From Congeria kusceri (Eukaryota > Mollusca > Bivalvia > Myida > Dreissenidae): a stretch of 64,000 nt of DNA. Positions 3,582 through 47,183 of the stretch are shown here, piece by piece (positions within the stretch are counted from its first letter, which is position 1; every line of letters starts with the position of its first letter). The position numbers were made by a program, and so were the translations under genes. The stretch is from NCBI GenBank assembly GCA_027627225.1, contig CM051027.1, forward strand, positions 90,208,151 to 90,272,150, read 5' to 3'. The notes below the pieces were generated by a model that did no database searches, was not told the origin of the DNA, and saw only the letters and a list, made by a program, of their open reading frames with translations.

Positions 3582-4493
3582 TTATTGTAAACAAGCATAC
3601 TCATAATGCATGTCATCGAATACTTCATTCAAGACGCTTCGTTTTATCGGCCGCGTCTGATCTCGGGTAACATCACCTCCGATAGGTACAGAATCTACAA
3701 GAAAAACAAACGGAAAGAGCAATATGAACAATGACATTTTGTAAACAGAATATGTTATTAACCCGGAACAAAAACAATCGATAACGTTATTAACTAACTT
3801 ATATTTAACAAATGCGTTACATAAATTGCTCCTGTAAACGTTGCTGATAAATGTGATGAACCAAACGCACATTTTCTTTTTTTAAATGCATGACCTAATA
3901 GAATAGCGCGTCGCGTAAAAAAATGATAATTTATTAACAATGGACTTCAGTTGAATCTGTTACCATATTTCTATCAATAAGCCACTTTGAATTTCATATC
4001 TGTAATATAGGAAGTAAACGGTTGTTAAAAGGAACAAACATTTTAAATTATATCATATGCTCATTGTTATGATAATTGTTGTATTGTTCTTTTTAATTTC
4101 TTTTTTATATGTCCACCAAAAACATCAATAAAATTATTTAAGGTACATGGACATAATACTGTACGTTTTGTACACATAGAACAGAGCGGAATGTACAGGC
4201 ATATTAATTTTAATATGGTTTACCTTACGTTTTCTATATAGGTAAATACATTGCATTTTACTATTTAGATGCAAAATCAATAACTAGAGACTAGAAAAGG
4301 CAAATCCTTAGGTGGAAACCGCTGCATTATCATATGAATAAATTGAAAACAATATAAAGGGCTTTAGATTAACTTTTTTTCACTTTTTTTTCGTTTTTGA
4401 GTTTTAAAAAAATAACTAAGATCTCTTACCTGCATATCTTACTAGTCCAATAGAAAGTATCAATACACAACTGGTAATTGTCTAAGGCCTCAT
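3582..4493 (-). pseudogene. Copy H of the Cys-rich prepropeptide family (broken)
   Basis: Exon 1 is 4430-4493: exactly 64 coding bases from ATG to a GTAAGA donor, phase 1, as in the other copies. It aligns codon for codon with their signal peptides but has TAG at codon 4 (4482-4484), where the others encode Leu (or Val in F). Exon 2 starts at 3694 behind a polypyrimidine tract and CAG-type acceptor (TTTTTCTTGTAG). It begins Ser-Val-Pro-Ile, matching the Ser-Leu-Pro-Ile opening of copies A-D, and runs open for 36 codons, including a Lys-Arg site, to a stop at 3582. No cysteine exon was found. The stop in the signal peptide makes this a probable pseudogene, unless exon 2 is reached from the signal exon of copy G at 8772-8832. 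Confidence 0.6.
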
Positions 4494-5318
4494 GGTCACA
4501 ATGTAAGCTCGCTCTTGACCACAAAAACGCCACAAGAAATGAACCGTTTACGGGTCGGCTGTTTCATTATATATATTATCTACGCTTAATAGGAAAATGA
4601 TTATTTTTGATACGATAATCTACGTCTTAATTAACACGAATGTATAGACATATTGCGTTAGTTTTCACTGAAAGCATTTTTTCGTCTATAGCTAGATCAA
4701 TATGTTTCGTTTCATACACAAATAATATAACTGATACAGTGGATATTTGTACAAATTCTGATGTGAATAATTTGACCAAACCATACGACAAGGTGGCTCA
4801 TGACGTAAAATATTTCACGTATGTGTATACGATTTGGGAGTCATCATTTGTGTCAATTAAAACAAAATATGACCATTTCGTATCTGTGATTTTGTTTGAC
4901 CGTGCAAGTCATTCAATGATTAACGGCAAAGTAATTCTGTATGTTGTACATAAGGGTTTCTCTCCCGTTAAAGCAGGAATCATTGTATTGTGTTGTTTTA
5001 AAAATGTTTAATATTTAGATAAGCGTTGCTGAAAGTCGTTACAACTCCAAGACTAGTTTAATTTTCGTGTGTACATTGTTATAATTGTATGTAGCGTTTT
5101 CTGACATTTATTGCACTCTTTATAGCAATATAGCAAAACAATTTGCTTAAATGATCATGCGGCTTCCTGCCCTTTGCCCTTCTGAGCTCATGCACGTTTA
5201 GTAGTTGATCCACAGAATGTGCAATCTTGGCGCTTTTTGCTCCTATAAAGCAAACACATTGCACAAGGCTTACTACAACGTGACAAAACTACGGAAACGT
5301 AGAAGGGCCTCCATTTGG
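4494..5318. other. Intergenic, no supported gene
   Basis: The plus-strand open frame at 4640-5011 (123 codons) is the longest unexplained one in this part. It lacks recognisable motifs and shows no exon context. Nothing else is supported. Confidence 0.4.
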
Positions 5319-6795
5319 TGAATCGTTTTTCACAAAGTCGACTTCTTTTTATGCACTTTGATCAGATATTTTAACACAAGTCAATGAATTTGATTCACAA
5401 ATATTTGAACTTTATAGACATTGCACCACTACCTTTTTTTGATGTTTTCGGGAATGCGAATATATATCTTTTCGCCAAATGAAACCATTCAGTCTGTTTG
5501 ACAAATATTTGTCAAAAGGATTAATGCATTATACCTTTCGAAAAGAAACATTTCGACAAGCGAGATGATTTATATTAATTTGTCAACAATTCGTCTAAAA
5601 TACGACGCAAAACCATTATACATTATGAAAACATAGTTTCCGGACTATTGAAAGGCTTCTTATAATTAAACTATTTTAGGTACATAGGTGTAACATCATA
5701 CAATATAGGTAAAGTTCGACTTTGATAACGAACCACTAAATGTTGACAGTGTTATGTACCCATATTGAACTTACTTTTTTCTAAATACCCTGTTTCCGAA
5801 TGATAACTCATGAAAGGCTTTAAAGATTGAAATAATTTTGACTACGCAGGTTTTACATCATAGACTGCATGTAAAGTTCGAGATTTGTTATAAAATACCA
5901 AATGTTGACAGAGTTATGGCCCCTTTTTTACTTAAAATCCCGAAAAACATGGTTTCTGGAAAATATCTCATGAAATATTCACATACTTATATAATTTTCG
6001 GTACATAGGTGTTACATCATAAAATACAGGTGAATTTCGACTTTGGCAACAAACTACTAAATGTTGACAGAATAATGGCCCCTATTGAACTTAATTTTTT
6101 TTCATCATTTTCAGCCGAGATGCATAACGCCACAAAATGTGTATGCTTAAACAAAACATTCACATAATAAAACTGTATTATCCAGGCCTTGCCCTGTCTG
6201 AGACGAGTTTGGGTTCACGCTCTGTAAGGAGCGCGAACAAAGTATCAAAACTCAATCCTGGCACTTGGGTACCGCAGAATGGTGTTCAGTACTGGTTCTT
6301 CCCAGTAAATAGATATTGTATTCACTTGAAACCTCACATATGTCTCTAGGTTCATGATGTTGGTCACTTGCTAAGGGCCAAAATTCTGAAAGGTATTTAA
6401 ATGGCAATGCACCAAAAATACCATGAAACGTCAACAAAATATCACAACATGACGTAAGTCAACATGACGTGATGTATACAGTAATGGTTTGGCGTCGCAT
6501 TTTAGACGAATTGCTGAAAAATAAATATAAATCATCTCACTTGTCGAAATATTTCTTGTCGAGAGGTACTATGCATTAATCCGTTTGACAATTATTTGTC
6601 AAAAGAACGTCATTATTTCATTCGGCGAACATATATTATATATTTCCCTTCACAAAAATATCAAGCGTATCAATAAATTTTTTAGTGGGTCAATGTCTAT
6701 AAAATTCTCGTGTTTGTGAATTAAATTAATTGACTTGCGTTAAATATCTAAACAAAGTGAATAAAAAGAAGTCGACTTAGCGAAAAACATGCCAC
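5319..6795. mobile_element. Foldback element with ~300-bp inverted arms
   Basis: The left arm (about 5319-5620) and right arm (about 6487-6795) are inverted copies over roughly 300 bp. Examples are AAGTCGACTTCTTTTTAT near 5335 against its complement near 6765, and TTCGTCTAAAATACGACG near 5590 against its complement near 6495. The core contains about three diverged 170-190-bp tandem units with the motif AAATGTTGACAG (near 5738, 5898 and 6058). No transposase frame is present. It looks like a non-autonomous foldback transposon inserted between signal exon G and copy H. Confidence 0.8.
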
Positions 6796-6901
6796 CATAT
6801 ATGTAAGTAACAAAGTAGCAAAACATATAACGAAACTATGATAATATCATTTATCTGAACATACAATAAAATGAGATTATTTAATGACTGATTCATATAT
6901 T

Positions 6902-7115
6902 CAGCGGTTTAATTGATATGGTGGTATATACTTCTAATCAAATATTAACTTTCGTGAAAATTTGGCTAATTTACAAGAAAGGTTGTCCACTTGTAATGAA
7001 TTCAACGGTTTAATTGATACTGTAGTATACTTCTTATCAAATGTTAACTATCGTAAAAATGTATATAATTTACAGGAAAGGGTGTCCGCTATTAATGAAA
7101 ACATAAGCAGTTGTT
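6902..7115. repeat. Tandem duplication, ~105-bp unit x2
   Basis: A segment containing GGTTTAATTGATA, a TACTTCT.ATCAAAT stretch and AATTTACA(A/G)GAAAGG is repeated twice in direct orientation with about 80% similarity. The small open frame spanning it is a by-product. Confidence 0.6.
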
Positions 7116-8460: not shown

Positions 8461-8771
8461 TCAACAAAATATTACATTTCTTACCGTTCCATGCCCATAA
8501 CTTGATATAAAATGTTCGTGAAGGCCGCGGCTTCATTCTGGACTTTCTCAATCGGATATGTGAGGTATAAATCCAACTTTGGCGCTGTTTCTGTTGAACA
8601 TCACAAGAAACACATGTAATTTGTTGATCGACATTGTGATTTATATTGATAAAAAATTAGTCTTTTTCGAAATCGGATGTAAAACAATATATATATGTGG
8701 TTGTGAATCGTGTACAACAGAACGATTCTGCTTAAATTTTCAACTCTTTGAAAAAAAATAAATATATTTAC

Positions 8772-8832
8772 CTGCATGCTTCATGTATCCAATCATATAT
8801 ATCAGCAAGCATATCCGCACATAATTTGCCAT
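8772..8832 (-). CDS. Copy G: orphan signal-peptide exon
   Basis: ATG (8832-8830, context CAACATGG) opens 20 codons plus one base before a GTAAAT donor. This is the same phase 1 as every other signal exon of the array. The encoded peptide is hydrophobic (MANYVRICLLIYMIGYMKHA) and ends His-Ala, like the Tyr-Ala ends of the other copies. It lies 4.3 kb from signal exon H and 4.3 kb from F, matching the array's spacing. No exon 2 or 3 was recognised between here and 4500; a 1.5-kb foldback element occupies part of that interval. It could splice to the exon at 3582-3694 or be a remnant. Confidence 0.5.
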
Positions 8833-8999
8833 GTTGCGTTGTACTTTGGCGCTGTTTATGTATGTTGGACGATTGAACAAAATCTTTGTCACGACATGTG
8901 GCATTGCGGAAATATCTATGATTTTTATATAACATCGGATGCAGGATTCGTATGCAAACATGTAATCCAGAAAAGTTGTTAACAGGTTTCTTCTCAAGT

Positions 9000-9857: not shown

Positions 9858-12800
9858 TTATGGTTCCTTGGTGTTGGAATCACAGAACATACATGCCCTT
9901 GCGTTTTGAAGCATAATCGCAGGTATTTCAAAGCTTCTAAAATAAAAATAAAACAATATAAAATATCAGTTAATTATAATATTCTTTTAGTTAAATAATA
10001 ACGACATAAATGGGAACTAAAGAACGGGTGTGCTGAAATTAGTATTTTTTATAAAAAAAAACCCATATGCATTCAGGAAATTCACGTGCATGTACAAATG
10101 TGTACAGTATCAAAGTGTACTGACCTGGACGCTTAAGCTTATTGTAAATCGTTAGTGTAATGTATGTAGTGGTTTTGTATTTAATAATGCACATATATGT
10201 AGCAGTATACGTAAAGTGATTACCTGTTTGACAAAACTTCCTCTTGTTTGGGGTTGTCTGGTTCTATAGGCGTTACTGCTGAAAGTGGCACCGTGGTAAA
10301 AAGAGAATCTGAAACATTTAAGATTAAATACCTTAGTTAAGCAACCGTAAACGATTCATATTTGCAATATGCGGCATTTAGCATGTTCAATTTAGATATA
10401 TCTGCTTGAACGTGTCAAGAAGATATAGAGAATATTAGGTTAGTGTTGAATAAAGGGGGCTTAGAAAATGAAAAGCACGAACCTTCGCGAATGCTTTTCA
10501 TTTTTTTGCCGAGCATGATAAACTTGATCTTTATTTAACACTTACCAAATATTCTATTAATCACACTTTTTTTTGCAATAAAACTGATTCAATGCTTTCA
10601 GTACTTTGATTTCTATTTAGCCATGGTCAGTGTATTACGCCCCGTTCTAAAAATACACAAACATGAATCGATTTAATCATCAATATAATGTTAAAATAAA
10701 CGTTAATCTATCCTTAAGTATAATTTTATTATAATGTGGTTGCATATGTCTAAGGTTTTTGACAAATACATGTTTGTTTCATAGAACTACATTTTTACCC
10801 TTTTGGCAAATCACACACGTTCACTCTCTATTTCAAGCAACGAGAATGGGGTTTGTGGATTTTTACGGGCATTTGTTTGCATTTTGGTGGAACTAACGAG
10901 AAACTCCGGATATTACAAACTAATTATGTTGAAGTTCTAAATATTGAATGTAGAGCCAAAATTGAGGAGGCAACGTTGTTACACCGTGAAAAAGAATGTT
11001 GCTGCGAGCTAGTACTGAAGTGACTCGGTGGGGTGAACGTCAACATTTTTAGGCAAGGTCAGAGGCTGCCAAATGAAGACTGGAGCTGGGAAGGGGTAAG
11101 CCGATACTGTGCTAGAACTAAATGTGATCTTGTGATTTGGATATTCAGACATGACAGCAGGTGTCCATGCAGTTGGTTTCAAAGCAATACTGTTTATGAA
11201 GTATCGATACTGTTTTCCTTAATGTATGACGTTAACAATGTTCTTTTGAGCATCATTTTGACAACACCTCATATATAACTTTTTTTTTTTTTAATTCCTT
11301 ATGTTCATTCAAATTGATAAAAAAATGATGCAAATTGTTCTTATTTCACCCAATAGTAAACACAACTGACCATGAGTGCAACAGTACGTAAAAAAGTAGT
11401 CCGGTTTGTTTCTAAAAATAACCGTTGTGTAAACTTTACATGTTGAATAAACCTTAGATTTACACCACGTACTGTTATCCAACCGATTTCTCTGTAAAAG
11501 TGTGATACCAAAAAATACGTGAAATAAAGGATTTTTGAAGAGTGTTTTATTTTTCAGACACATTTTTAAATTATGAAGTACCGCTTATTGCGGTTAAGAT
11601 TAAAGGGGCATATCGACGGTATTCCCTTAATATAGCCACATATAAAAACAAGACATATTCCATTCTTTTCTGCAATATATTTTTCAAGCAGCAATAGTAT
11701 ATTGATGCAATCGTTAAAAAAAAAATATACAGAATGCCGAATAAACAGTTTTTGGATACGGTTCCAGCTGGATTCGAACGCCCGCCTGCAAAATCGCACA
11801 CTTCAATTAAATTTTCAATGTTACACATGCGCGTAACGGTACTTCATGTACATTTCATTCATGTCGAGTTTACTACTTAAAATAAATTTTCCGTCCCCCA
11901 CCCCCCAATGTGTTACCGATGACCACTGTTTACATGTTGAAATTATATATATTTGCCCACTGTTTATATTTAATATTATTTCTTTGTAAATAAACTTTAT
12001 TTTTGCAAATGGTATTGTCGATCTAAAGTCGATACGCCCCTTTGAATACAAATTTAAGATATTTCAAATATAGCGCAAAGTATGCCTTTATCCCATGCAA
12101 ATATCCTGCTTGCCAGCAAGCTTCGTTTCTGTAACAGGAGTTCTGGTGTGTTTTCTTGTATGTTTTGCAGGTCCACAGGCGCACACCCTGCAAGGTCAAG
12201 GATTTTGTACAGCTGCTGGGTATCGAAATTGTGTACTGACTTACATGTTATCTAAGTAATACTCTTAGTGAACATATTGACACATTCTTTAAATGATATA
12301 ATTCCAAAACGCTGAAATATATCAATATAAAATAAGTACATTGTACTGTAAAATTTATAACATTTATTAACAACAATAAATGTAGTGTGTTGGTTCTTTT
12401 CTTTGCTATTTGCGACTTACTGCATTTAAAGTGTCACTTCTTTGCCTTGGATAATGGATAATCTCAGAGTGAACCGTATAAGCAGAACAACATATCGGTT
12501 AAATGATTTTCAATGGTTATAACACTATGTAAAAAGCTATGTAAAAACATATTCACGCGGTGATCTTTATAAAATTGGAACAATTGGTATATTTTTAACT
12601 GTAATGATCTTTAACAGTTTCATAAATGGTAATATTGTTTAACCATTGTTTACAAAAGATTATATGAGGCGCGTCGTGGGAAAACCGGTCATAATGCATG
12701 TGCGTAAAGTGTCGTCCCGGATTAGCCAGTGCAGTCCGCACAGGCTAATCCGGGACGTCACTTTCTGCCTACAGTGAATTTATGTTTAGAAGAGATTTTC

Positions 12801-13104
12801 ATTGAAACAGAAAATGCCATAAAAGCGGAAAGACGACACTTTACGCAGATGCATTTTGACCGGTTTTCTCATGACGCGCCACATTTATATTTGTAATTGT
12901 AATCAAATACCCATTACATGACCAATTCCTTTAGTATTTTTTAACATTAACCAATCACTACGAGTTGGTTTCCTTATTAAACAAACAACACAACAGAGAA
13001 ACAGATCGCAATGGAATCACAATCACAAAATAACACCTACCCACGGAGGTAAATATCCTCAGTGAGAACATACACATAATAAAAAATATCGTCACAATCC
13101 TCAT
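9858..13104 (-). CDS. Copy F: secreted prepropeptide with a single CxxC
   Basis: Three exons with consistent phases: 13041-13104 (64 nt, signal peptide beginning MRIVTIFFIMCMF, donor GTAGGT, phase 1), 10224-10308 (85 nt, acceptor TTTCAG, donor GTAATC, phase 2) and 9858-9936 (79 nt, acceptor ATTTTAG, stop TAA). Together they encode 75 residues with no lesion. Exon 2 starts Ser-Leu-Phe where A-D have Ser-Leu-Pro, and gives a Pro/Glu-rich propeptide. Exon 3 keeps only the last pair of cysteines, as ACMFCDSNTK, matching the CPFCDSNGK of copy A, and lacks the Lys-Arg site. The start is the ATG that opens a hydrophobic stretch of the family length. The product should be secreted; its function is unknown. 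Intron 1 (10309-13040) contains repeats, including the palindromic MITE at 12666-12885. Confidence 0.72.
11580..12050 (-). repeat. Dispersed repeat with tRNA-like box B (SINE-like)
   Basis: The complement of 11760-11800 contains GTTCGAATCC, a perfect polymerase III B-box. The segment 11580-11840 is similar to 27205-28075: shared pieces include GGGGCATATCGA.GGTATT, AATCGTTAAA and ACACATGCGCGTAACGGTAC. The 27-kb copy is interrupted by a MITE absent here. A SINE-type origin is likely; the exact ends were not defined. Confidence 0.5.
12666..12885. mobile_element. Palindromic MITE (dreissenid-type)
   Basis: The inverted ends GGCGCGTCGTGGGAAAACCG (12668-12687) and its near-complement ending at 12880 extend inward through GCGTAAAGTGTCGTC on the left and its complement near 12833-12847. 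A second internal palindrome, GATTAGCC...GGCTAATC, lies at 12721-12748. I recall this sequence type as very common in zebra-mussel genomic DNA. It is non-coding and lies in intron 1 of copy F. Confidence 0.75.
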
Positions 13105-16014: not shown

Positions 16015-17182
16015 TCACACTTCTTTACTAATAGTGCCACAGAACGGACAGATTTCACACAACGGACAGTCTCGTCGTTTTCTTCCTACTACAGACCTGC
16101 AAAAGATGATACCAGATAATGCTTTTTGTCAGATAAAAGAATAATTAAATGAAACTCCAAAGACATCACCAGGAGAGAAAACCTTATTAACATCCGCTGG
16201 TCTTGAGGAAAGTGACCAATTGCCTATACAATACAGGACAATACGCACAAAACAACGAAAAACATAAAAATGATTAAAACTGGGGTCACCGCCTTGGAAT
16301 GGTCCGGTCATACTAACGAAGTTTGTTTTGCCATTGCTTTTATTTCTGCTTAAATATCTGCTTTCTTCCTTAATGTTCAATTGATTTGTTATTGCTTATT
16401 TCATTGAGAGAATATGGAATAAAATAACATCTACCAATATGTTTTGCAACTATCTGAATGTGTTAACTGTTATTAAAAACAATTATTTTACGGAATTATA
16501 AACATTTCAAAACGCTCACCATCTTGCTTGTCGTCATTAATTCCAGCTGCACCGATACCACCAACAATGTCCCTCGTGTCATTGATGATCGGTGATGAAT
16601 CTGTTCAAAAACACATTTTAGGTGATAAATATTCACACGAAACAAATAAGTATATAAATACATTTATGTTTATTCCAAATTGTGTTTAAGGCTTGTTGGC
16701 AATGTATAACCAATATTGAATCTGTTACTAAAAATATATTTTTGTATCCTAACATTTAGAGAAATTCCAATAAACAACTATGTATTATTATACTATCCTT
16801 ATTGCTGTACAGTTAAGAGAGATGGAGAGAGTGAAATGTTTGCAGCAGGACAATAGAAAGAAGGGCATAAAGGAAATGAGATGTTTGCAGGACAGGTCAA
16901 GTTATTGTTTTCATAATAAACCAAAAAGAAAAGTTTAAAGCCGTACAAAACTTCAAGCACATTTATCACATTATTCAACATGTACGAATAAATGAAGAAA
17001 AAGTGTAACAAAAACCCACGTTTTTTTATTCCTTGATGAGTTTTTTTTTAACAAATTCATAGAATTAAAGCATGTTTTATTTTCATACATTATATTTAAT
17101 AAAATTAAATACGCTTACTTGCATACTGAATCCATTCCAGAGAACATACCAGTATGAAACAAATCAGTGTTAAACAACGCAT
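16015..17182 (-). CDS. Copy E: secreted prepropeptide with four-Cys CxxC ladder
   Basis: Exon 1, 17119-17182 (64 nt), encodes a signal peptide (MRCLTLICFILVC...) ending Tyr-Ala at a GTAAGC donor. Exon 2, 16520-16600 (81 nt, acceptor GAACAG, donor GTGAGC), opens Ser-Ser-Pro-Ile. Exon 3 ends at TGA 16015 and encodes GRKRRDCPLCEICPFCG, keeping the four cysteines and the dibasic site. Exon 2 is 81 nt, not a multiple of 3 plus 1 as in A-D and F, so it ends in phase 1. The acceptor homologous to the other copies (first base 16096) would shift the frame and meet a stop at once. An inner acceptor eight bases on (TGTAG, first base 16088) restores it, giving 72 residues. Either that site is used or the gene is frameshifted. 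Function is unknown. Confidence 0.62.
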
Positions 17183-18736: not shown

Positions 18737-21147
18737 CTTTTTGCGGGAAATTGCCGGTCCGCCGCATCACCTTCGATGTCATCGCGGATGTGCTCATTAC
18801 TTATCGGCAAAGAATCTAGATTGAGACAAGAATAAATATATCATATCTGTGTTCGTATTAATTAATAGAATGTACATAATATACAGAAGTTATAAAGGAA
18901 CTATTCGTTTGTGCATTTTATTTGTCTAGCAGTACACCTCATGTGCACTGATAGTACTTATGCATTATTGCCTTACCGATATATAGCTACAATTGTATCA
19001 TAAAGCTCCTTAGGTTAGACTTAATTTAAATTTCTTTAAACAAACCAAATCCTCATGTCTGTGACTGTTTCATTTAATGTTGATTTAAACGGTTTTATTC
19101 ATGTACAAATAAAAAAAGAATGTTAATATATTACAAACATAACATTGCGATTTTCCCACGGAAAAGATGATCTTGCAATTTTCACATAAATACAGCTTTA
19201 GTGAAGATTCTCCTTCGAATCTTAAATATACGGTCTCTGGACAGGTATTCATAAGGCTCCTACTGAACTTTCCACTTTTCAGATCGAAATTGCTATGCGA
19301 ATTTCAATGATGTTTATTTCAAATATTGTCACATAAGCAGTACATGTACATGCTCAGTATTTATTAGAATAACACCGAGAAATGCAAATATAACACTCTA
19401 ATACGAGGGCATAGATTAAAGTATGTTTACAAGTTTAGGGTATTGCTTAATTATGAGCTTTACAATTATGCGTCCTGAGCTATATTACTAATGTCATGCC
19501 AGTACACATATCGCATATTTTAATCCGTTTTCAGTTAAATTAGTAAACACATGTACGGTGGAAAAAGGGAATTTGCCCTTTTGGGAGGAAGTGTGTGTGG
19601 GGGGGTACTCTGTACTGGGTACTCTGTACCCAGGATAAAATAATAATCAACAAATCTTGATTAATGTTTTACATTTGGATTAAAGATGAAAGACAATGTG
19701 AAACAGATAATTAACAAGGCTTTGATAGTATTGATAGTATTGCATGCAATACAGGAGTCCCCTACCGGTGAAAACCTCCACTAATTAAACATTGTGCAAT
19801 ACCGTCACATCGCCCTTTATCTGTAGATGTATAAAGTTTCATATTCTAATCCCATTTGTCACTACAGTATCAAGTTATTGTTTTTTCTATTTTAGTAAAA
19901 TTGACCAGACATTCGAGTTACTTTTGAGTAATTTTTACATTGCTACATTGACAGGGGGCAATCATATAGTCCATTCTGTGTACCAAGTTTCATGATCATA
20001 TGTTATGTTCGTTTCGAATTATGACAGTATTAAGTTTATTTCTATTTTAAGTAATAGTCACGTGACCGTTGACCTCCGGTGAAAAATAAATGGTCGTGTA
20101 CAATCCTCACCTTGCTCTTTCTATGTATACAAAGTTTCATTAAAGTATCTTCAGTACTTTTTGAGTTATCGTAGGATTCAGGTTTTGGGGACGGGACAGA
20201 CAGACAGAGTGAGACCGACGGACGAACAGACAGACAGACGCACACAGACGGAGAGCAAACCCATAGTCCAATCTGTGTACCAAGTTTCATGATGTTTCAT
20301 GATCATATCTTATGCACTTTTTAAAATATTACAGTATTAAGTTTATTTTATTTTTAGTAACTGTCACGTGACCTTTGACCTCTGGTGAAAAATAAAAGGT
20401 CGTGCATAATTCTCACATTGCTGTTGCTACGTATACAAAGTTTCATCAAAGTGTCTTCAGTACTTTCCGAGTTATCAAAGGATCCAGGTTTTGGGAACGG
20501 ACGGACAGACAGACATACGGACGAACAGATAGAGACACACAGACGGATGGCAAACCTATAGTTCAATCTTTGTACCAAGTTTCATGGTAATATCTTATGT
20601 ACTTTTCGAATTATAACAATATTTAGTTTATTTCTGTTTTTAGTAACAGTCACGTGACCTTTGACCTCTGGTGAAAAATGAAAGGTACTGCATACTTCTC
20701 ACATTGCCTTTTATAGGTATACCAAATTTCATGGAAATATCTTCAGTACTTTTTGAGTTATTGCAGGATCCAGTTTGCTTAAGTTTATTTCTATTTTTAG
20801 TAACTGTCACGTGACCTTTGACATTTGGTTAAAAAAATAAAAGGTCGTGCATAATACTCACATTGCCGTTTATATGTATACCAAGTTTCATCGAAGTATC
20901 TTCAGTACTTTCTTGAGTTATCGCAGGAACAATATTTTGCGGACGGACTGACGGACGGACGGACGGACGGAGGGCAAACCTAGTCCCCTTCGTTGAAACA
21001 CCGGTTGGGGACTAAAAACGAAATGTGATCCGTGATGTTTAATAATTGATTCCCATGTATATTTGCATTAGTGCTGCACTTACTTGCATAGCCGATTAAT
21101 CCGATAAGGCAGGCGATAAGTAAACTGACTATTGCCAAACGTCTTAT
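18737..21147 (-). pseudogene. Copy D of the Cys-rich prepropeptide family (start lost)
   Basis: Exon 1, 21084-21147, is 64 nt with donor GTAAGT and encodes RRLAIVSLLIACLIGLIGYA, close to copies A-C. The initiator is ATA (21145-21147) where the others have ATG, and an in-frame TAG lies a few codons upstream with no intervening ATG. Exon 2, 18737-18815 (79 nt, acceptor AATCTAG, weaker donor GTGCTT), is open, starts Ser-Leu-Pro-Ile-Ser, and ends in phase 2 as in A and B. No exon 3 of its own was found; the next cysteine exon downstream is that of copy E (16015-16096), which is phase-compatible with this exon through the outer acceptor. Probably a pseudogene. Intron 1 contains the foldback array at 19754-21014. 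Confidence 0.65.
19754..21014. mobile_element. Tandem-repeat element with short inverted ends
   Basis: The ends are AGTCCCCTACCGGTG (19756-19770 region) and the complement CACCGGTTGGGGACT (21000-21014), 14/15 matching. Inside are 4-5 diverged direct units containing GT.ACGTGACC(T/G)TTGACCT(C/T).GGT, TACCAAGTTTCAT and TATCTTCAGTACTTT.GAGTTATC, plus GACAGACAGACGGACG microsatellite stretches (20190-20250, 20498-20550, 20940-20970). It is non-coding and lies in intron 1 of copy D. Confidence 0.65.
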
Positions 21148-24355: not shown

Positions 24356-25846
24356 AAATGCACTCATAATTCACATGCTTGCTTTTAGTTTCTTTTGTCG
24401 CGAACAGTCTTTCTACGCTGTCAGCGTTTTGATTCCAATTGACCGCATACGAGCCATTTAAGTCACCGGTATAAAATGGTCATGCAACAACTATCACATG
24501 TTAGATTTGTATTTAGGACGGATTATAAAAGAAGATAAAACAGTGTTTGACATTAATGTGCAGAAAATACGCCGTTCTAGGATTAAAGATGATACCGGTG
24601 TATCCTGTTTTACAATAAAACTGGAAATCTACCTAGATTGTTCTATAATTTAGAACCAATACAATAGTTAAACACAACATATATGAACTGATCTGTTTTG
24701 TTGGCACTTATATGAAGTTGTAATGACATTCTCTACATAAAAATGGACGAAAACTCTATTTGAGATTATCGGGTAATACAGGAATCTTTTTAACTCACTA
24801 CATACTATAAAACACAGCGAACGTTTTATTTATGATCTTAAAACAACTGTGATTTCTTAATTTTGTCTCAACGCATATCATATTTGGTTTCAAATAAAGC
24901 AACAAGTGATCCTGTGCAATTTATTAACTATACCATATTGCAAGAGAAATTTACATAATTTACCAATGACAACTATTTCAATAAATGCATATCCCATTTA
25001 TTACTTAGAATCGCAAAGCTAGCTCTTTATAAATGTATATTAGTTAATTATTAAACAAATCAGACCACACGGGTTTTAGATGACATTTGGAATACCATTC
25101 AATGTTCTTGTTCAGTCAATGGCATCGCTTGTTTGTCTCATTACTCCATTGGCGGGTCTGTTAGGATCTCCAATTTTCCATTGCTGCCACAAAACAGACA
25201 GGGTGTGCAAGTTGGACAATCCTGCCTTTTAACTCTACCCGCTTCACTGAAAATAAAAACTAATAAAAGCTTGAAGCGCTCACTGACACATATTGGTCAG
25301 ATAAGATAGTCATTCAGTTTCCCCTGTACTGCAAAATGCAATCTAAGCCTGATTCAATGTTTAATCAATTTATTCATGACTTATTTTATTCTGCCTCTTG
25401 ACTCTGTTTAACAAAAGCTGCAAGCAACTTGTTGGAACTTGATTACATGCATCATGAAAAACAATATGTTAAGTACATCGACGCTTGTGTACAAAGGTGA
25501 GAAAAAAAAATCATCCTTCTGCGAGAAATTGCCGGTCTACCGCATCGTTGTTATTGTGGATGGGCCCATTACTTATCGGCAAAGAATCTAGTTTAGGAGA
25601 AGAATAAACATATAAAATATATGTGTTTGTATTAATTAATATGATATATGTACACAGGCAGTGATTCGTTTGCCATTGTGTCTGTGGCTGGTAAATATCA
25701 AAACACGTTCCATTTTAACCATATTTAAAACAACATGGTGATTTTCACGCTGACTATTTTGCAATTATCACATAAATCTAGCTAACTAGAGATGATGTTT
25801 TGTATTTCAAAGCTTATTTGAAGGTCCTTCCGCGCCGAAGCAGCAT

Positions 25847-26028
25847 TAGGTGTAGACCTACTAAGTTACAATTAGGTGTAGACCTACTAAGTTACAATTA
25901 GGTGTAGACCTACTAAGTTACAATTAGGTGTAGACCTACTAAGTTACAATTAGGTGTAGACCTACTAAGTTACAATTAGGTGTAGACCTACTAAGTTACA
26001 ATTAGGTGTAGACCTACTAAGTTACAAT
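25847..26028. repeat. 26-bp minisatellite, 7 perfect copies
   Basis: Seven identical head-to-tail 26-bp units (TAGGTGTAGACCTACTAAGT plus TACAAT) run from 25847 to 26028. Each contains the inverted pair TAGGT/ACCTA. Perfect identity suggests recent expansion. It lies in intron 1 of copy C, in the segment homologous to the site of the 30-bp array in copy A. Confidence 0.95.
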
Positions 26029-27308
26029 TTTCCTTAGGTGGCTTAAATATACGGTCTCGGTGTTTGTATTCATACCGCTCATGAAACTCTTAACCTAATT
26101 TACACGTAAGTGGAAATTTCGTATCAACATTTCTATGAGAATTTCAATCATGTATATTCAAAATACGGTTGAATACATAGCACATTAACATGTTCATTAG
26201 TCTTAGAATAATACATTAAAATGCAAATTTATTAATATAAAGCATAGGAAAAAGACTTTAGCATTTTTACAATTTAGGGGGAATTATTAACTTATGAGCT
26301 TTATTAATGCGTCCTGAGCTATACTAATAATGTCATGTCAGTACACATATCGCAAATGCAAGTTTTCACGGGGACCTAAGTCGGTCACAACGTACAGTGT
26401 TGCCTGTTGAGCTCGTGTCACGGCTGCCTGTCGATAGTGTTACGGTTTCCTGCGAGTTTAAATATGGCTAACAACACGCGTCTTGTTTAACAAAAAATTG
26501 AGTCGTGCATATTTTCACAATTTTCTCAATGTAATAGGTAGTTTAGACTTTACACCATCTGATTCGCCATTAATTTGGTTTTTAGCGTCGCATTCAGGTA
26601 CAATATGCAGGTAAACGAATGAATTAACGAGTTGCAGTCTGTAAAATACAGTTTTGTTATTACAATCCAAGAATATGACATATTTCGACTAGTAGTTCAT
26701 GTACGATTGAATCCATAACTAATCGAAATTCTCGGGAAGCATTACAATAGCAAAAGGTAGGATTATTCATGTCTTATGCATTTCATAATTACATTTGTAT
26801 TATGAAATATGTCACGATTTGCACGTTGAGCTAAGATCTAATGTCACGGTTGTCTGTCTATAGGGTAACGGTTTCCTGCCAATTATGGAGGAGGGATCCG
26901 AAGTGTCGTTCTAGGATGAGTCACCATTTTTGAAGAAAAGAATGTTTCTGTGAATCTTCATGTAGAAACATGATTTGCAATGACAAAAACAACAAATCTA
27001 CAGAAAAGTCAATACTTGTTTTCATGTGTTTTAGTAACCATTTTAGGTCATTTCAGTAATTGTTACCATAGCAATGCGTCAAATGAATATGAATCAGCTG
27101 TACTTGAGAAACGTGTAGTTTACAGGAATGACAGAAGCAAATTTACCCTGCTCAGTTAATCCAAACGCAGGTATCACCAACGTTTGGTTTATCATTCACA
27201 ATTTTCTTGACTGCAACGTAATTAAAAGGGCATATCGATAGTATTTGGCATAAACAAAATAATTTCCCATTTTTTCGAATAGCAACAATAAATGATAGAA
27301 TCGTTAAA

Positions 27309-28424: not shown

Positions 28425-30477
28425 CTATTTTCACGCGCCCGTGAGAATGCCATCGATAATCAGTGTTTATGTATATACTATAATTCAGTATATATGTGCT
28501 TTAACTGTTATAGAAATAATGCAATCGTTAATTTATGTTGATTCAATATTAGTATCCGTTATTCTTCAGATACCGTAGGGCCGGTGCAACATTAAATATT
28601 TACCCCTTTGAAAATTGACCCATGGGTCCTTTTTCAACGTTGAGAATTGACCCCGCCAACAATTGAAACATTTAACATCAGAAAAAAAACATTATTAATT
28701 GTATATTAATATAAACATTATTTTAATAAGTAAGTGATACGAATATAAATTGTATTAACAATCTAAACATTGTGTCACTTACAATCAGCAAAAAATTAGT
28801 GAACAATACAAACTTTAGGGCCGATTTAGTACAAATTTCCCATAACAAAATATTATATGCACAGAAAGTTTCGGAATGTGCACAATACTATCTCATTCAG
28901 TCTTAAACTGGTAATGGTCTTAATAAATCCACCCATAATATATTAGGCATTCATTTTAGCAAGTGTTTTTTTTACGGTCGTTTAAAGGTGGTGTAACGTT
29001 ATATTGTGACTTCGAGAGTCGTTTTACAACGTTGAAAACAATATTCGGCAATATCTTCATCTTGCCGGACAATGCGGAAAGTATAACTATCGACAGTAAA
29101 ACCGTCACAATGTCCATACTATCGTTATACAAACCGTGCCATGGCGTAATAAAACCGTGACATATTCAAGAACAATATTTTGGTATTTTCTTGATATAAC
29201 CATTGAAATCATACACTTTAACCCAATAATTATATGTTATATTACACGAGAGATGAGCCACTGCATGATGTTTAATGTTTAATGCCCACTGAAAAAAAAT
29301 CGAAATGTGATAAGACGTTGGTTAAAAAACCTGATAAAATCATAAAATTGCTGCATTATACACAAGTTTCAAATAAATAAATCTTTTTACACACTGATAA
29401 AATTATAGGAAATTTATGATCCATCAAATTTGCAATCAGTTTTTTGCTTAGTTATCATTAAAGTATCAGAATTTAGCATTTGCTATTTTTCTGCTTGCAA
29501 AATATCGCAAGAAACCTTAACACTATCCATAGGCAGCCGTGACGCGAGTTCAACAGGCAACATTGTACGTTGTGACCGACTTGGGTCCCCGTGGTTTTCA
29601 GATATATTAGTGAATTCATTTACGGTGTGAATTGGGACTTTGTCCCTTTTGGTAGCAGGGATACTCTGTGCACTGAGTAAAACAAAAAGACCAACAAATA
29701 TTAATTACAATTTTACATTTGGATTATTGATTGAAGACAATACGAAAAGATAATTCAAATGCCCACGTATATTTAAATTAGTACAGCACTTACTTGCATA
29801 CCCGAATAATCCGTTAAGGCAGACGATAAGTAAACTGACTACTGCCAAACGTCTCATACTGGATGACAGGGTTTTAATCTACCTTTGCTATATTATATTT
29901 TATGGTTTTTAAACTGTTGTCGCAAGCCAACAGGATTAAGTAGTTGTATTCAGAAATCGGACTTTAAGAGAACCCAACCCTTTCAAATTTGAATAAAAAC
30001 CACAATTTTCATCAATCTGATCTATTTCGAGAAAGAACATGAAGTCCTATTACACTGGTTTAAAGATTTATTGGAAAAAAATAAAATTGAAAATGTCACA
30101 TATAATGGTGTTTTGAGGCCAACATTTAGACGGAAATAAATGTACTTGGGTACATCTGGAAAACATTATTTTAAATCAGAATTAAGCATAAGTTTGAGTG
30201 TTAATAGGCATAGCAGATACAATATATAAAGTCAGAAGTGAAAACAATCTTAATTGGCATTCTAAATGTTACAGAATAGGTTTTTAATCCGTTTTGAACC
30301 AAATTTTGTTTTTAAGTTTCTGCATTTTTGGGGGTAAAATCCATATAAATGTAGCATTTCAGATGCCATTTGACCCCAGAAAAGGGTTTGTTTACATAAC
30401 AATCAATAGATTTGACCTCCTGTCACACAATAAAAAAGAATTTGGCCCCAAAATGTCAATGCCAGATATTAATTAAC

Positions 30478-33025: not shown

Positions 33026-33530
33026 TTGATGATTTCTTTGCCAACGATTTATTCAGTGCTGGTGTTTTCCATTACTGTAAATTATTTCAGTTTTGCCATT
33101 CCCTCAGCAAACATATATGGTGATTGTCAGATGTTACCATTTTGTACATACCGTTCCCTTTTGTTGGATTTAATTGCCTATAGAAATGCGTCGTATACCA
33201 CTGGCAATAGAGAAGCATGAATGGATAATTACGCACAAGTGTCAGAGATCATAATAATGAGAAGCAGATTGAATATTCATATGTATAAAGATGTTTATCT
33301 CACAAGCTAGTACACTGCCAATGTTGACGTTACTTCAACATGTGCCGGGAATTGATAAGTGCGTGATCTATACATGTGGAACGAATTTCAGCCAACTGAC
33401 AGTCCGGATAGGGCAGTGGTTTGTATATTCTTTTTCCAGACATGAGAGCCGCTGTACACCGGGTTAGATTTTCACCGGCGCATGTGCATGATTGGTTTAC
33501 CATACCGATCAGCTGGTATTAATCCTTCCC
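33026..33530 (-). repeat. Orphan copy of the array's upstream block
   Basis: This segment matches the region upstream of copy B: 33040-33200 with 41260-41400, and 33200-33530 with 42010-42330. It includes the donor-like GTATGT at 33146-33151, the E-box-like CACTTGTG and a TATA-like CTTTATACA at about 33285. No signal exon lies just downstream; the nearest is exon 1 of copy C at 29857. It is probably a leftover of duplication. Confidence 0.55.
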
Positions 33531-39496: not shown

Positions 39497-41173
39497 TCAG
39501 TATTCCATCGGTGGGTCTGTAATTGAAATCATCCATTTTCCATTGGTATCACAAAATGGACAGGGGATGCAAAGTGGACATGGCTGTCGTTTTATTCTAC
39601 TCGTTCGACTGGAAATAAAAACATGTAAAATATATAACATAGCTCACTGACACATCTGGGTAACTGAAAGTTACTTGTAATTTCAGTTTCCTGAATGCAG
39701 AACTATTTCAAGTCAGATTTGGTGTTGATTGAACCCACTGAATTATCAATTATATTTATTAGAATAATGTATTATGTTGCAGTAGTTATCTGGAGATCGT
39801 GACTTCGATAACTACTCTGGCAGCGTTAGAATGAACTTTCTCAAAATACACTTAACTCGAACGTGTCGCTATAAGCTTCTGGCTTAAGACACAATTGAGC
39901 TGAAATAAATAGGTGCAAAAATATTTATCACGTCTCCAGAAAGAAATTTAATAAAAATTACCTGCATGTTTTTGCATGTCTTTCATCAGTCAATACGTCG
40001 CTTATGATGTACGCATGTAAGAAACACTCACCTTTCTGTGAGAGACTGCACGCCTGCCTCACCGTTGTCATTGTGGATGTGCCCATCACTTATCGGTAAA
40101 GAATCTATATTGAGAGAAGAATAATCATATACAAGTATTTGTTTCAGTGAATAAATATTCAGGTTAATATATGGGACTGATTCCATCGTGGATTCCCGTA
40201 TATCTCATACATACTGACATTGAAAAGAATTATTTGCATAGCGCTGTATGTAAACAGCTGGTCTTGTATTCTTAGAGTCGTTAGGAAACTATTAACTATT
40301 ATCAGATCGAAATTTCTATGTGAATATCAATAATTTATAATCAAATAGGAAGTATATGTTCAGTGTTTACTGGAATAATTAATTTCCATGCAATTTAACC
40401 AAAAATGACACAGGCGATTTGTACACTTTTAATGGATTTTCTTAAACTTGTACTTATCTAAATCTAAAAATATTTATTCTGAGCTCTATTAATGTCATGC
40501 CAGCACATATCTCGCTGTCATAAGTCTAGAAATTCAAATAAAAGAAAAACACAGCATTATGCCCTTTTGTGGGGGTGGGTGGGTAATAGTTTGTCCGCAG
40601 TGTTAAAGACATATAATCAACACATGTTAATCATTTTACAGTTGGCATAAGTTAGTTAAATAACTGAAAACAATAGAGTATAATTACATGTACGTATATG
40701 AAATTTGCATCGTGATAATTATTTAATGTTTCAATTGCCCACGTATTATTAGATATTATAATATGATAGTTGCTTATTTTGCTATAGACAAAGAACACAA
40801 TTATCGTTGTTAAACTATACAATAAACAACGCAAAAAGTAGTCCCGATTCTGAGCGGAGCCTAGTAAATAGTAGTGCTAATTACAATTGCAAAATCATAT
40901 GTCCAACCATGTCAGAATCGAAATAATTTTCGCATTATCGTTGTTAATCGGACAATAAAAAACTCTTTGTCGTTTTGATGCGTGGCTATTAAACAACTCG
41001 GGCTAACGCCCTCGTGGTTTAATTCATTCGCATCAGAACTCCAAGTCGTTGTTTATTCGCCGATAAACAACGATAAATAGAAAATTATTTCTTAAATGAC
41101 AACACTTACTTGCATAGCCGATAAATCCGTTAAGGCAGACGATAAGTAAACAGACTATTGCCAAACGTCTCAT
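39497..41173 (-). CDS. Copy B: secreted four-Cys prepropeptide (intact)
   Basis: Three exons, 41110-41173 (64 nt), 40032-40104 (73 nt) and 39497-39608 (112 nt), with donors GTAAGT and GTGAGT, acceptors ATATAG and TTTCCAG, and phases 1 and 2. Together they encode 82 residues. Exon 1 is a clear signal peptide (MRRLAIVCLLIVCLNGFIGY). Exon 2 gives a polar, His/Asn-rich propeptide starting Ser-Leu-Pro-Ile-Ser-Asp. Exon 3 encodes RIKRQPCPLCIPCPFCDTNG, then Lys and about 12 more residues to TGA. The Lys-Arg fits prohormone-convertase cleavage, leaving an N-terminal Gln that could cyclise. Asn-Gly-Lys after the last Cys could serve as an amidation signal. The four Cys at x2 spacing could form disulfides or bind metal. 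Role unknown: a peptide hormone, defence peptide or matrix peptide are all possible. Closest relative is copy A. Confidence 0.82.
40921..41090. mobile_element. Short inverted-repeat element in intron 1 of copy B
   Basis: The ends AAATAATTTTCGCATTATCGTTGTT (40921-40945) and its near-complement at 41066-41090 form inverted repeats. The interior carries GGGCTAACGCCCTCGTGGTTTAA. A related copy in the opposite orientation lies at about 55321-55490. It sits 19 bp downstream of the exon-1 donor of copy B. Confidence 0.65.
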
Positions 41174-41341: not shown

Positions 41342-41490
41342 ACATACCTTTCCCTTTTTGTAGGATGCCATTGCCTATGGCGCCATTGAGTTCACACCAC
41401 AGGCAATAAAAAGCATGAATGGTCAATGACGCACATGTGTCATCGTAATCAGAAACAGATTGAATATTCATACATTCATTTATAAAGATT
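41342..41490 (-). promoter_or_regulatory. Upstream block of copy B (candidate promoter/5' exon)
   Basis: Minus strand: TATAAA (41484-41479, with a second TATATAAAA just upstream), CACATGTG E-box, TGCGTCATTG (AP-1/CRE-like), then a donor-like GGGAAAG|GTATGT (GT at 41347-41346). The same order is seen at 47354-47500 and 21309-21440. A start about 30 bp below the TATA box and an untranslated first exon ending at 41348 are inference from conservation. Confidence 0.4.
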
Positions 41491-42004
41491 TTTATATAGG
41501 AAGCTACTACAATGCCCATGTGTGTGTTTTATAATAATTGGAATTGATAAGTGTGGAACATCGAAATTTGAAGCAACTGGCTGTCCGGTAACGGGAGTAG
41601 TTGGCGTATGTTTGCTTCTTATTTAAGAGGATTCGGGTTCGTCTCCATATCAAAAGTCAAATATGTTATGGCAAACAATAGATAGCTGGAAATGTCTAGC
41701 TGATTTAGAAATCGTCCCCATAAGTGTCTTAATTATTAGGTAAGTGCGAGTGATTCATGCATGCCTAAGGCGGCTTCAGCACGAAAGTACATCAGAAACA
41801 ACGAAATACAAGTTCAACGATTAGGCATAGCTTCTTTTTAACATTGGTAAATAAATTTATGAATGAACAGGTAGTTATTCAGTCACTATATGTGTTCGCC
41901 TCGTGTAACAATTCCCCACAAATATAGCCCAGTTCCTTTGCACTAAAGGAACCCGGGTTTACTATTACATGTATCTTTACATTCTTACTGACTTGTAGAC
42001 CTCA

Positions 42005-42140
42005 ATTTCCTATTGATATGCAGTGTATACCACTGGCAATAGAAAAGCATGAATGGACATTGACGCACAAGTGTCAGAGATCATATTGATGAGAAGCAGA
42101 TTGAATATTCATATTTATAAAGATGTTTATCTTACAAACT
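42005..42140 (-). repeat. Second, partial copy of the upstream block
   Basis: ACCACTGGCAATAGAAAAGCATGAATGG through CTTTATAAATATG on the minus strand repeats the distal half of the block at 41390-41490 and the orphan at 33195-33300, but lacks the donor-like end. It is a duplicated flank without its own gene. Confidence 0.5.
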
Positions 42141-42389
42141 AGTGCACTGCCACTGTTGACGTTATTTCAACACAATTGATCAGTGTGGAACCCATTTGAG
42201 CCCACTGGCAGTCCGAATAGGGCAGTGGTTTGTATATTCTTTTCCCAAACAGGAGAGCCGGGCTAGATTTTCGCCGGCGCATGTGCATGATCGGTTCACC
42301 ATACCGAACAGGTGGTATTAATCCGGACACTCCCGTTTCACCACATACAATTAAAACTCAGGAAGCGATGCGTCAAAATAAGTAAACTA

Positions 42390-44330: not shown

Positions 44331-44572
44331 TATTATATTTTGTGTTAAAACTGGTGTACAGATACGATACAGTACACTCATTAAAGAGCATAATTGCTAT
44401 TAAATAAAATTGCAAAATAAAACTGTGATTCAACCTAGTGTAGATTGTTGTGAAGCAATAAAAAGAAAGAACATACATGAAGTCGCCATATTTTATTTGC
44501 TTATTATATGTATATAATGTATGCAATGTTAGTACAGCCTATACTTTAAAAATAATGGAAAGCACTATTTAA

Positions 44573-45060
44573 AGGGACTATGTCATCGAAAAGGGCCTCA
44601 AGGGGGCAGTTGTTGTTGTTTAATCTGAAATTTAGATATTATTACTGGCATTTAATAACGGTTAAAACAGGGGATATATATCGGGAAAAGGGTGTACGCA
44701 TTCTGAGATAAAAATCAATTTTTGATATGGGTTGTGTTGTTTTGCCCGTTTCCTGTTTACAATTTGACGTCAGAATTGTGAGCATTTTGTATAAGCAGTT
44801 GACTAACGAATCCTTACCAAGCAGTTGGTTAAAGCGCTGTCTACTGTCATTTCTTCGTATGGCTCCTAAGTCGTGAGTTCGACACTCGCTTGGGGTTTTA
44901 ATTTTTTCTGGCTTTTTTGCTAATTTGTTTTTATCAAATATCCTATTGTGATTATATTAGTTTCATTTATTTTATGTCCGTGTCTTAGTAAAGCGCATTT
45001 CTATCAAATAGTATAATTTACAGTGCAATAGGAAGCCAAGTTTTTGTTGACATAGACCCT
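44573..45060 (+). mobile_element. TTAA-flanked MITE with tRNA-like interior
   Basis: Inverted ends AGGGACTATGTCA (44573-44585) and the complement TGACATAGACCCT (45048-45060, one mismatch) are bordered by TTAA on both sides (44569-44572, 45061-45064), as in piggyBac-type insertions. The paralogous site at about 39075-39095 lacks it. The interior has a GGTTAAAGCGCTGTCTACT...GAGTTCGACAC stretch resembling tRNA boxes A and B. There is no open frame of note. A relative lies at 8026-8460. Confidence 0.75.
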
Positions 45061-45441
45061 TTAAGTAAATTATTATCGGGTATACGGGAATTTAAAACTC
45101 ACTGCATACTATGCAATTCAATCAATGGTTAATTTATGATATTACAGTAGTAATGTTTTCTTAATGTCATCTCGGTGTCATATTGGGGTTAAAACAACAA
45201 CCAATGATATTGTGCAAGTTTTTTACATTACCATTCTTCTACGGGAATTATTGTATTTTGCCAATTACACATACAAGTACAAATGTATATCAATCAGTGA
45301 ATAAACAAATTATTACTCACAATCGCGATGCTAGCTCATAAACAATCCATTTTCATGAATTTTGTAAAAAAAAAAATGCCAGCATTGAACAACTTTTGCA
45401 TATGAAAGGCGTTATCAACAACACAATTATTTCAGACCACA

Positions 45442-45447
45442 TTTATT
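45442..45447 (-). terminator. AATAAA polyadenylation signal of copy A
   Basis: AATAAA on the minus strand, 50 bases after the stop codon of copy A, is well placed for the 3' end of that transcript. Confidence 0.5.
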
Positions 45448-45496
45448 AGGAAAACTATTCCGATTCAATCAATGGTATCGTTGCTTTGTCTCATTG

Positions 45497-47183
45497 CTAC
45501 GTCGGTGGGTAGGTTTGGTCTTTCCCATTGCTGTCACAAAATGGACAGGGGTTGCATAGTGGACATTGCTGCCGTTTTATTCTGTCTGTTCTACTGGAAA
45601 TAAAACACAACAATGTGAAATATAGACAAAGCGCTCACTGACACATCTTGTTAACTGAAAGTTACTTGTCAGATTCGATGTTGATTGAACCCACTGGTGG
45701 TGCACTGGCTGTAGTGTCCGCCTTGCGATCGAAAGATCGAAATTTCGATTACTACTCGCGTAGCGTTAGACCATTTTCTCAAAAAACACCACATAGGTCT
45801 ACTAGTTCTACTCAAAAAACTAGAACGTGTCGCAATAAGCCTCTGGCTTTAGACACAATGGAGCTACAATAAACAGGTTCACAATTATTTATTACGTCTC
45901 CAGAATATGTTTAATAAAAATCGCCTGCATGTTTTTGCATATGTCTTTCATCAGTCAATACGTCTCTTATGATGTACGCATGTAAAAGAAACACTCACCT
46001 TTCTGTGAGAGACTGCACGTCTGCCGCATTGTTGCCATTGTGGATGTGCCCATCATTTATCGGCAAAGAATCTAGATTGAGACAAGAAATCAAGAAGCAA
46101 TCAGGTGTTGTGGTAAATAAATATTCAGGTACGTAATGGAAATGATCACACCGTGCATTCTTGTATATCGTGCATCACATACACACTGCCATTGCGAATG
46201 TTCTTAAAGCTGTATACAGCTGGTCTAGTATTCTTAAAGCTGTATACAGCTGGTCTAGTATTCTTAAAGCTGTATTCAGCTGGTCTAGTATTCTTAAAGC
46301 TGTATACAGCTGGTCTAGTATTCTTAAAGCTGTATACAGCTGGTCTAGTATTCTTAGAGCTCTATACAGATGGTCTAGTATTCTTAAAGCTGTATACAGC
46401 TGGTCTAGTATTCTTAAAGCTGTATACAGCTGGTCTAGTATTCTTAAAGCTGTATACAGCTGGTCTAGTATTCTTAAAGCTGTATACAGCTGGTCTAGTA
46501 TTCTTAAAGCTGCATACAGCTGGTCTAGTATTCTTAAAGCTGTATACAGCTGGTCTAGTATTCTTAAAGCTCGTGAGGAAACTATTAACTGAAGTTACAC
46601 TAGAACTTAAGTGTAAATTTTGAATAATAATTTCTATGTGATTATCAATAATTTATATTCAAATAAGAAGTATCTGTTAAGTTTTTACTATAACAATACA
46701 TTTACATGCAAATTTAACCATCAATGACACAGACAAATTGTACATTCTAATGAATTTTCATAAACTGTTACTTTTCATATTAATTAATATAGATTTTGAG
46801 CTCTATAACTAATGTCATGCCAGCACATATCTCGCTGTCATAAGTCAAGAAATTCAATAAAAGGTCAGAAAATAAAACAGGATTATGACTTTTGGGGGGG
46901 GGGGGGGGGGAGTTGGTGGGGAATAGTCTCTTTGCAGGGTTAAAAAATATAATCAACAAGTTTTAATTATTTTACATTTGGCTTAAGTTAGTTAAAAATT
47001 GAAAATAATAACCGTAAATGTAAATGTAATTAAAAGTAGGTATGAAATTCGCATATTGATAATTATTTAATGTTTCCAATGCCCACGCATAATTACTTTT
47101 AGATAATAACAACACTTACGTGCATAGCCGAGATATCCGCTGAGGAAGACGATAAGTAAACAGGCTATTGCCAAACGCCTCAT
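45497..47183 (-). CDS. Copy A: secreted four-Cys prepropeptide (intact)
   Basis: Three exons, 47120-47183 (64 nt), 45999-46071 (73 nt) and 45497-45593 (97 nt), with donors GTAAGT and GTGAGT, acceptors AATCTAG and TTTCCAG, and phases 1 and 2. Together they encode 77 residues. The signal peptide begins MRRLAIACLLIVFLSGYLGY. The propeptide starts Ser-Leu-Pro-Ile-Asn-Asp. Exon 3 encodes RIKRQQCPLCNPCPFCDSNG, then Lys and seven residues to TAG. All features of copy B are kept: Lys-Arg, Gln after it, C-x2-C-x2-C-x2-C, Asn-Gly-Lys. The tail beyond Gly-Lys differs completely between A and B, as expected for a spacer trimmed off. The exon-3 acceptor is a CAG/TAG tandem, so an alternative loss of one Ser is possible. 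Intron 1 holds the 30-bp minisatellite. Function unknown. Confidence 0.82.
46201..46571. repeat. 30-bp minisatellite, 12.4 copies
   Basis: The unit TTCTTAAAGCTGTATACAGC plus TGGTCTAGTA is repeated 12 times in exact 30-bp register, with a partial 13th. Variants are in units 3, 6 and 11. Each unit contains the 14-bp perfect palindrome AGCTGTATACAGCT. Because the period is a multiple of three, long repetitive frames appear on the plus strand. It lies within intron 1 of copy A. The homologous intron of copy B has one diverged unit (about 40237-40273). Confidence 0.97.

Follow-up and report, generated by a model that had tools for sequence, protein, structure and literature searches.

A tandem array of candidate secreted cysteine-peptide genes in the bivalve Congeria kusceri

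The 64,000-nucleotide stretch of the Congeria kusceri genome analyzed here (contig CM051027.1 of assembly GCA_027627225.1, positions 90,208,151 to 90,272,150; hereafter, the window) carries eight copies, A to H, of a gene made up of short coding exons, the last of which contains a cysteine (Cys) motif. As read from the sequence, this cluster very probably represents a tandem birth-and-death family of genes for small secreted peptides, which would most likely be ligands. The exon anatomy, the intron phases, the homology of the copies and purifying selection on the Cys core are established. The original prediction, made from the DNA letters, had described a tandem family of secreted, processed, Cys-rich peptides; this description is supported, with the reservation that "Cys-rich" is a liberal term for F, G and H, which have two Cys each.

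Exon anatomy and gene models

All exons of the array are on the minus strand, and their coordinates are given as window positions. Exon 1, which had been proposed to encode a signal peptide, lies in each copy where it was predicted: at 47120–47183 in A (signal peptide MRRLAIACLLIVFLSGYLGYA), 41110–41173 in B, 29794–29857 in C, 21084–21147 in D, 17119–17182 in E, 13041–13104 in F, 8772–8832 in G and 4430–4493 in H. It is 64 nucleotides (nt) long in seven copies and 61 nt long in G, and in all eight it is followed by a GT donor in phase 1, as predicted. The proposed signal peptide is open in six of the eight copies; in H, there is an in-frame TAG at codon 4, and in D, ATA replaces the start codon.

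Exon 2, the putative propeptide exon, was found at 45999–46071 in A (beginning AG|ATTC, phase 1 to 2), 40032–40104 in B, 25515–25587 in C (without the splice donor GT), 18737–18815 in D, 16520–16600 in E (AG|ATTC, SSPI, phase 1 to 1), 10224–10308 in F (AG|ATTC), 8485–8590 in G (AG|AAAC, the longest among the second exons) and 3601–3694 in H (AG|ATTC, SVPI, with the donor GTATGC set by eye to suit the exon 3 phase). The expected AG|ATTC start is thus present in seven copies and absent from G, while the S-x-P-I string that this exon had been said to encode is present in six and absent from F and G.

Exon 3 was located in every copy except D, where none was found downstream of exon 2. The residues around the predicted cleavage site are KR|QQCPLCNPCPFCDSNGKDQTYPPT followed by a stop in A (45497–45593), KR|QPCPLCIPCPFCDTNGK... 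in B (39497–39608), KR|QDCPTCTPCLFCGSNGK... in C (25141–25246) and RKRR|DCPLCEICPFCGTISKEV followed by a stop in E (16015–16088). The remaining three exons are of a two-Cys type, and each ends in a stop: NAR|ACMFCDSNTKEP in F (9858–9936), KKR|QDCTFCGSTTKRA in G (5188–5242, translated as KKRQDCTFCGSTTKRA) and PKR|DCALCGNQVNDHNR in H (3212–3278, translated as PKRDCALCGNQVNDHNR). As can be seen, the array contains two subtypes, with CxxCxxCxxC in A, B, C and E and a single CxxC in F, G and H. Along the window, the two-Cys copies H, G and F come first and are followed by E, D, C, B and A, which are of the four-Cys type wherever exon 3 is present. A dibasic site and CxxC had been predicted for this exon; CxxC is found in seven of the eight copies, and a dibasic site in A, B, C, E, G and H.

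In A, B, F and G, joining the three exons yields an uninterrupted frame for a prepropeptide; the introns are of the GT-AG type, the first in phase 1 and the second in phase 2, and these four copies appear intact by sequence. The junctions that had been proposed for A (47120 to 46071 and 45999 to 45593) do yield an open frame, of 77 amino acids (aa), and the B precursor is 82 aa long. Copy E, with introns in phases 1 and 1, is probably usable: it gives a precursor of 72 aa provided that splicing takes place at the second of two acceptor AGs. Damage is seen in C, which has lost the exon-2 donor, in D, which begins with ATA and lacks exon 3, and in H, which carries an early stop. Searches for open frames miss the family because the intact copies have coding exons of only 55–112 bases; exact junctions are now available for the four intact genes.

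Several repeats lie inside the first introns. Intron 1 of A includes a 30-bp minisatellite of 12.4 copies (46201–46571), of which B has about one unit. Intron 1 of C includes seven perfect copies of a 26-bp unit (25845–26029) and two 89-nt inverted arms (26367–26455 and 29505–29593) that are 91% complementary, lie 3 kb apart and possibly belong to a mobile element.

Detection of the copies and conservation of the cysteine core

The exon-2 pattern AGATTC-N4-CC-N-ATH occurs six times on the minus strand and never on the plus strand, with 0.025 matches per strand expected; it misses F, and a looser version retrieves eight matches, two of them unrelated. The exon-3 signature C-x-[FL]-C-[DG]-[STN], with a stop no more than 25 residues further on, has seven matches on the minus strand, one in every copy except D, and none on the plus strand, against 0.11 per strand expected from 100 simulations, a null that understates chance because the pattern was composed after the seven had been seen. 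All seven matches fall in the correct intervals and have fitting acceptors and phases. A dibasic site combined with CxxCxxCxxC was retrieved at four loci (five rows) and was absent from 40 simulations.

The third exons of the two-Cys copies were obtained in different ways. Exons 2 and 3 of F were retrieved with a profile built on the A, B, C and E cores, exon 3 of G comes from a scan of candidate exons with phase 2 matching, and exon 3 of H comes from a relaxed dibasic-CxxC scan with a null of 1.2 per strand. When the exon-3 core profile of A, B, C and E was run against 3548 six-frame open reading frames (ORFs), G (E = 0.0017) ranked first and F (E = 0.0024) second among the untrained matches, followed by an unrelated one (E = 0.015), all without null2 correction; for the best single domain, the values are 0.082 for G and 2.7 (i-E) for H, which is weak. 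Another partner exon for F, near 12187 (QKRSLLASRIF...), is in phase, bears no likeness to the family and was rejected in favor of the better partner exons given above.

A DNA profile of exon 1 trained on A to E recovers these five copies plus the untrained H (E = 0.007); F is not found by it in the window, and G appears only as a noise-level fragment (E = 11) below three unrelated ones. Many signal-like ORFs precede a phase-1 GT (19 rows on the minus strand, E being counted twice, and 10 on the plus strand, with a simulated mean of 9 per strand), so that exon 1 alone cannot establish F or G. No further copy at 47.2–64 kb or on the plus strand rose above noise with the exon-1 DNA model, and none was present among the 16 best ORFs retrieved by a seven-copy exon-3 profile.

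The copies were next compared codon by codon. Between A and B, the ratio of nonsynonymous to synonymous substitution rates (dN/dS) over 70 codons is 0.44, with values of 0.75 for the signal, 0.47 for the propeptide and 0.20 for the mature part; the corresponding changes are 5/21, 7/32 and 3/17. In a 20-codon core around the Cys residues, dN/dS is 0.15 for A-B and 0.29 for A-C, and synonymous sites are saturated for A-E; Fisher's test gives p = 0.025, 0.024 and 0.0003 for the three pairs, respectively. A and E differ at 8/19 residues and retain every Cys. In a nine-codon core, the proportion of synonymous differences (pS) exceeds that of nonsynonymous differences (pN) in 15/15 pairs that exclude H; in the pairs with H, pS is below pN for A, B and F, about equal for C, slightly above for G and clearly above only for E. 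No insertion or deletion separates A from B in 210 coding bases up to the NGK residues, while intron 2 is ungapped in 363/453 columns. Judged from these substitution patterns, the Cys cores are under purifying selection.

One could argue that no genes are present and that chance exons are combined with repeats of a noncoding tandem duplication. The flanks and introns are indeed duplicated as well, and several copies are broken. However, divergent copies retain their reading frame, intron phases, splice sites and Cys codons far above the nulls, and the core has an excess of synonymous changes, which makes this explanation highly improbable.

A number of observations weigh against the view of the cluster as a family of secreted, processed peptides under selection. 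At least three of the eight copies are damaged. F lacks a dibasic site and has a single Arg instead (NAR|ACMFC), the signal exon of G is by itself at noise level, and in E the acceptor required has a competitor in a CAG 8 nt upstream, which by eye is the better site but breaks the frame. The cores and signatures were written post hoc, and the nulls and ratios are flattered by this. The difference in A-B identity between coding sequence (183/210) and intron 2 (292/363) is marginal (p = 0.0499), and the identity of A and B exon 3 DNA (61/73) is no higher than that of the 3′ flank (345/413). The mature part is not significantly better conserved than the rest (invariant residues 9/17 versus 15/53 among A, B and E; Fisher p = 0.06), and the A and B tails beyond NGK are unequal in length. 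The order of dN is reversed both in B-C (0.088 in exon 1, 0.235 in the core) and in A-C (0.188 and 0.203). For exon 1, dN/dS reaches 1.25 in B-C, exceeds 1 in A-D and C-D and is undefined in B-D, with few changes throughout.

Possible nature of the peptides

The cluster is best read as coding for a secreted, processed peptide: separate exons would correspond to signal, propeptide and mature part, the introns are in phases 1 and 2, and a basic site comes before a short Cys peptide at the C terminus. By sequence, a signal, a convertase site and a short conserved mature peptide can be recognized in A, B, E and G. Exon 1 would thus provide the signal peptide, exon 2 the propeptide, and exon 3 the basic cleavage site together with the mature peptide. 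The predicted precursors, 72–82 aa in length, would be routed into the secretory pathway and cleaved at KR or RKRR by a proprotein convertase. The peptide set free would comprise approximately 12–29 aa and contain either a single CxxC or the tandem CxxCxxCxxC. It would then act extracellularly, most likely as a ligand in signaling or defense. Transcription, the disulfide or metal state, the target and the birth-and-death history are likewise parts of this model that we infer.

One possibility, which we put forward tentatively, is a signaling family of short, perhaps amidated neuropeptides, hormones or pheromones. In A, B and C, Gln follows KR and N-G-K is conserved, with a variable tail beyond it, so that pyroglutamate and amide ends may be formed. 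Compared with the distant E, copies A, B and C have changed 12–14/21 residues of the signal and 7–8/19 residues of the dibasic-mature part. This is the pattern of selection described for signaling peptides in PMC10501145 (here and below, statements on published systems refer to the available parts of the cited papers). However, the contrast in conservation is non-significant (p = 0.06) and opposite for B-C. Also, a conserved hormone seldom sits in a cluster with several damaged copies, and the disulfide of a CxxC ring is tight.

The tandem cluster, the pseudogenes, the two Cys subtypes, the plan of three coding exons and the core of B and C, which has diverged further than their exon 1, point instead to defense or toxin-like effectors, i.e., diverging Cys peptides and pseudogenes directed against microbes or parasites, as in Mytilus CRP-I; this may be the case, and we put it forward just as tentatively. 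The predicted net charges of the mature peptides speak against it: A (−1), B (−2) and E (−2) are acidic and lack the positive charge expected of a cationic antimicrobial peptide, and G is only +1. Acidity, together with a core kept relative to E, leans rather to a signaling ligand with a conserved target, and the core of A, B and E is under purifying selection, which is also at odds with defense.

CRP-I itself has been described as forming gene clusters with many pseudogenes, with a conserved signal and propeptide, a hypervariable mature part and the knottin array C(X3-6)C(X1-7)CC(X3-4)C(X3-5)C (PMC10138031). The Congeria cluster shares with it the molluscan cluster with pseudogenes, the three coding exons, also a feature of conotoxins (PMC3862624), and a mature peptide encoded last, after a KR/RR propeptide site (PMC10138031); the site is dibasic in A, B, E and G and a single Arg in F. 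It differs in having two or four Cys, none of them adjacent, instead of C-C-CC-C-C (PMC10138031), and perhaps also in its mature core, which outlasts the signal in comparisons with E, though not with C.

A match in gene plan is provided by conotoxins. Three exons are found in 8/9 superfamilies studied, intron 1 is in phase 1 except in I2, and intron 2 is in phase 2 except in I2 and T (PMC3862624); a contryphan gene has phases 1 and 2 as well (PMC10501145). Signal, propeptide and mature exons with basic cleavage before a short C-terminal Cys peptide are shared with the O2, M and contryphan genes (PMC3862624, PMC10501145), and the phases are matched by A, B, F and G, E having 1 and 1 (PMC3862624). 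Framework XIV (C-C-C-C) likewise has four Cys without neighbors (PMC4278219). In conotoxins, exon 3 evolves fastest and exon 1 slowest according to a Dn table (PMC3862624), whereas here the trend with E is reversed, non-significant and opposite for B-C; no feature of the sequence hints at a cone snail. As far as sequence can tell, then, the gene plan equals that of conotoxin genes and the Cys array is different.

Two further molluscan systems were considered. PXRX proneuropeptides are secreted precursors with four Cys and a P[FM]R[WY] motif that is missing from two Dreissena members (PMC6425005); by eye, this motif is absent from the predicted precursors A, B, E, F and G. Myticalins, too, are prepropeptides from a multigene cluster; they have a dibasic site, and a phase-1 intron interrupts their coding sequence, but they are linear, cationic and Cys-free, with a central mature part and two coding exons (PMC12294457). 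The Cys array sets the cluster apart from the systems compared in spite of the shared gene plan, and its pattern of change is unclear; we therefore filed it under none of them.

Metal knuckles and thiol-disulfide exchange both make use of CxxC and CPxC(G) motifs. The CPLCxPCPFC spacing, and CxFCG in E and G, are presumably reminiscent of knuckle and redox motifs, and the two-Cys forms retain exactly one CxxC. The peptides could thus be secreted metal-binding or redox molecules whose Cys bind metal or exchange disulfides instead of forming fixed ones. We consider this distinctly unlikely: there is no other evident ligand residue in common, 10–15 residues are very short for a metal site, and structure prediction for A exon 3 alone was uninformative (predicted local distance difference test score, pLDDT, of 56; predicted template modeling score, pTM, of 0.19).

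Returning to secreted ligands, a more specific and rather unlikely proposal is that of an undescribed molluscan family in which the CxxC module (CxFC[DG]S) would be the active unit, doubled to CPxCxxCPFC in one branch, and the gene plan would be conotoxin-like. If true, the cluster could represent the type of endogenous signaling-peptide gene from which venom-type families are recruited. If expressed, the genes would extend the known mollusc peptides by a family whose Cys pattern differs from those considered here, and they would test whether the conotoxin plan of three exons with phases 1 and 2 is a wider template of mollusc peptide genes.

Database searches and surrounding sequences

No named family had been recognized in the original prediction, and none was found in the searches of Pfam, PDB, a protein database and literature. 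A protein database that includes molluscs contained no homologue of A or of an A, B and E alignment (the two-Cys copies F and G were not searched); this result is only moderately informative because, among the linker-histone relatives listed from that database (see below), mollusc proteins are represented and the host species is not. Pfam had no family for A or E, the two copies scanned, and PDB gave, with the 24-residue mature part of A, a single chance match to a zinc finger (E = 1.1). Rfam yielded nothing at gathering thresholds, the motif strings of the four-Cys type had no literature match, and in the available parts of the literature on Cys-peptide and antimicrobial families, none was recognized as matching the cluster.

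Conserved blocks, on the minus strand, are found upstream of some copies. That of A (47184–47545) is 87% identical to that of B (304/351 ungapped) and has motifs in common with D and with a similar block at 33075–33340. The latter resembles the blocks of A, B and D and may belong to C, having been moved about 3.1 kb away from C exon 1; part of it (33161–33340) also matches a second block near B (41993–42172). The segment 47283–47373 and the matching blocks of B, D and 33075 are conserved and are perhaps a promoter or an untranslated first exon.

Beyond the array, a linker histone H1 gene, apparently split by an intron, occupies 61913–63730 of the plus strand. Its ORF at 61913–62419 encodes the globular domain (Pfam Linker_histone, 6.5e-26), and the ORF at 63038–63730 encodes a Lys/Ala/Pro-rich tail with an acidic part. 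Among 120 of 292 relatives, the best named are from Lottia, Sinanodonta, Patella and Mytilus (59–70% identity over 48–67% of the query), with named annelids ranking after molluscs, in line with a molluscan host; the top identity among the matches listed is 72%. A 360-aa ORF on the minus strand (52536–53618) yields one weak match to immunoglobulin that stays below the Pfam cut-off (E = 0.005), and a signal peptide and a transmembrane segment can be made out by eye. Finally, a 145/289-bp tandem repeat array at 48911–50003 is, by eye, akin to the array at 19956–20773.

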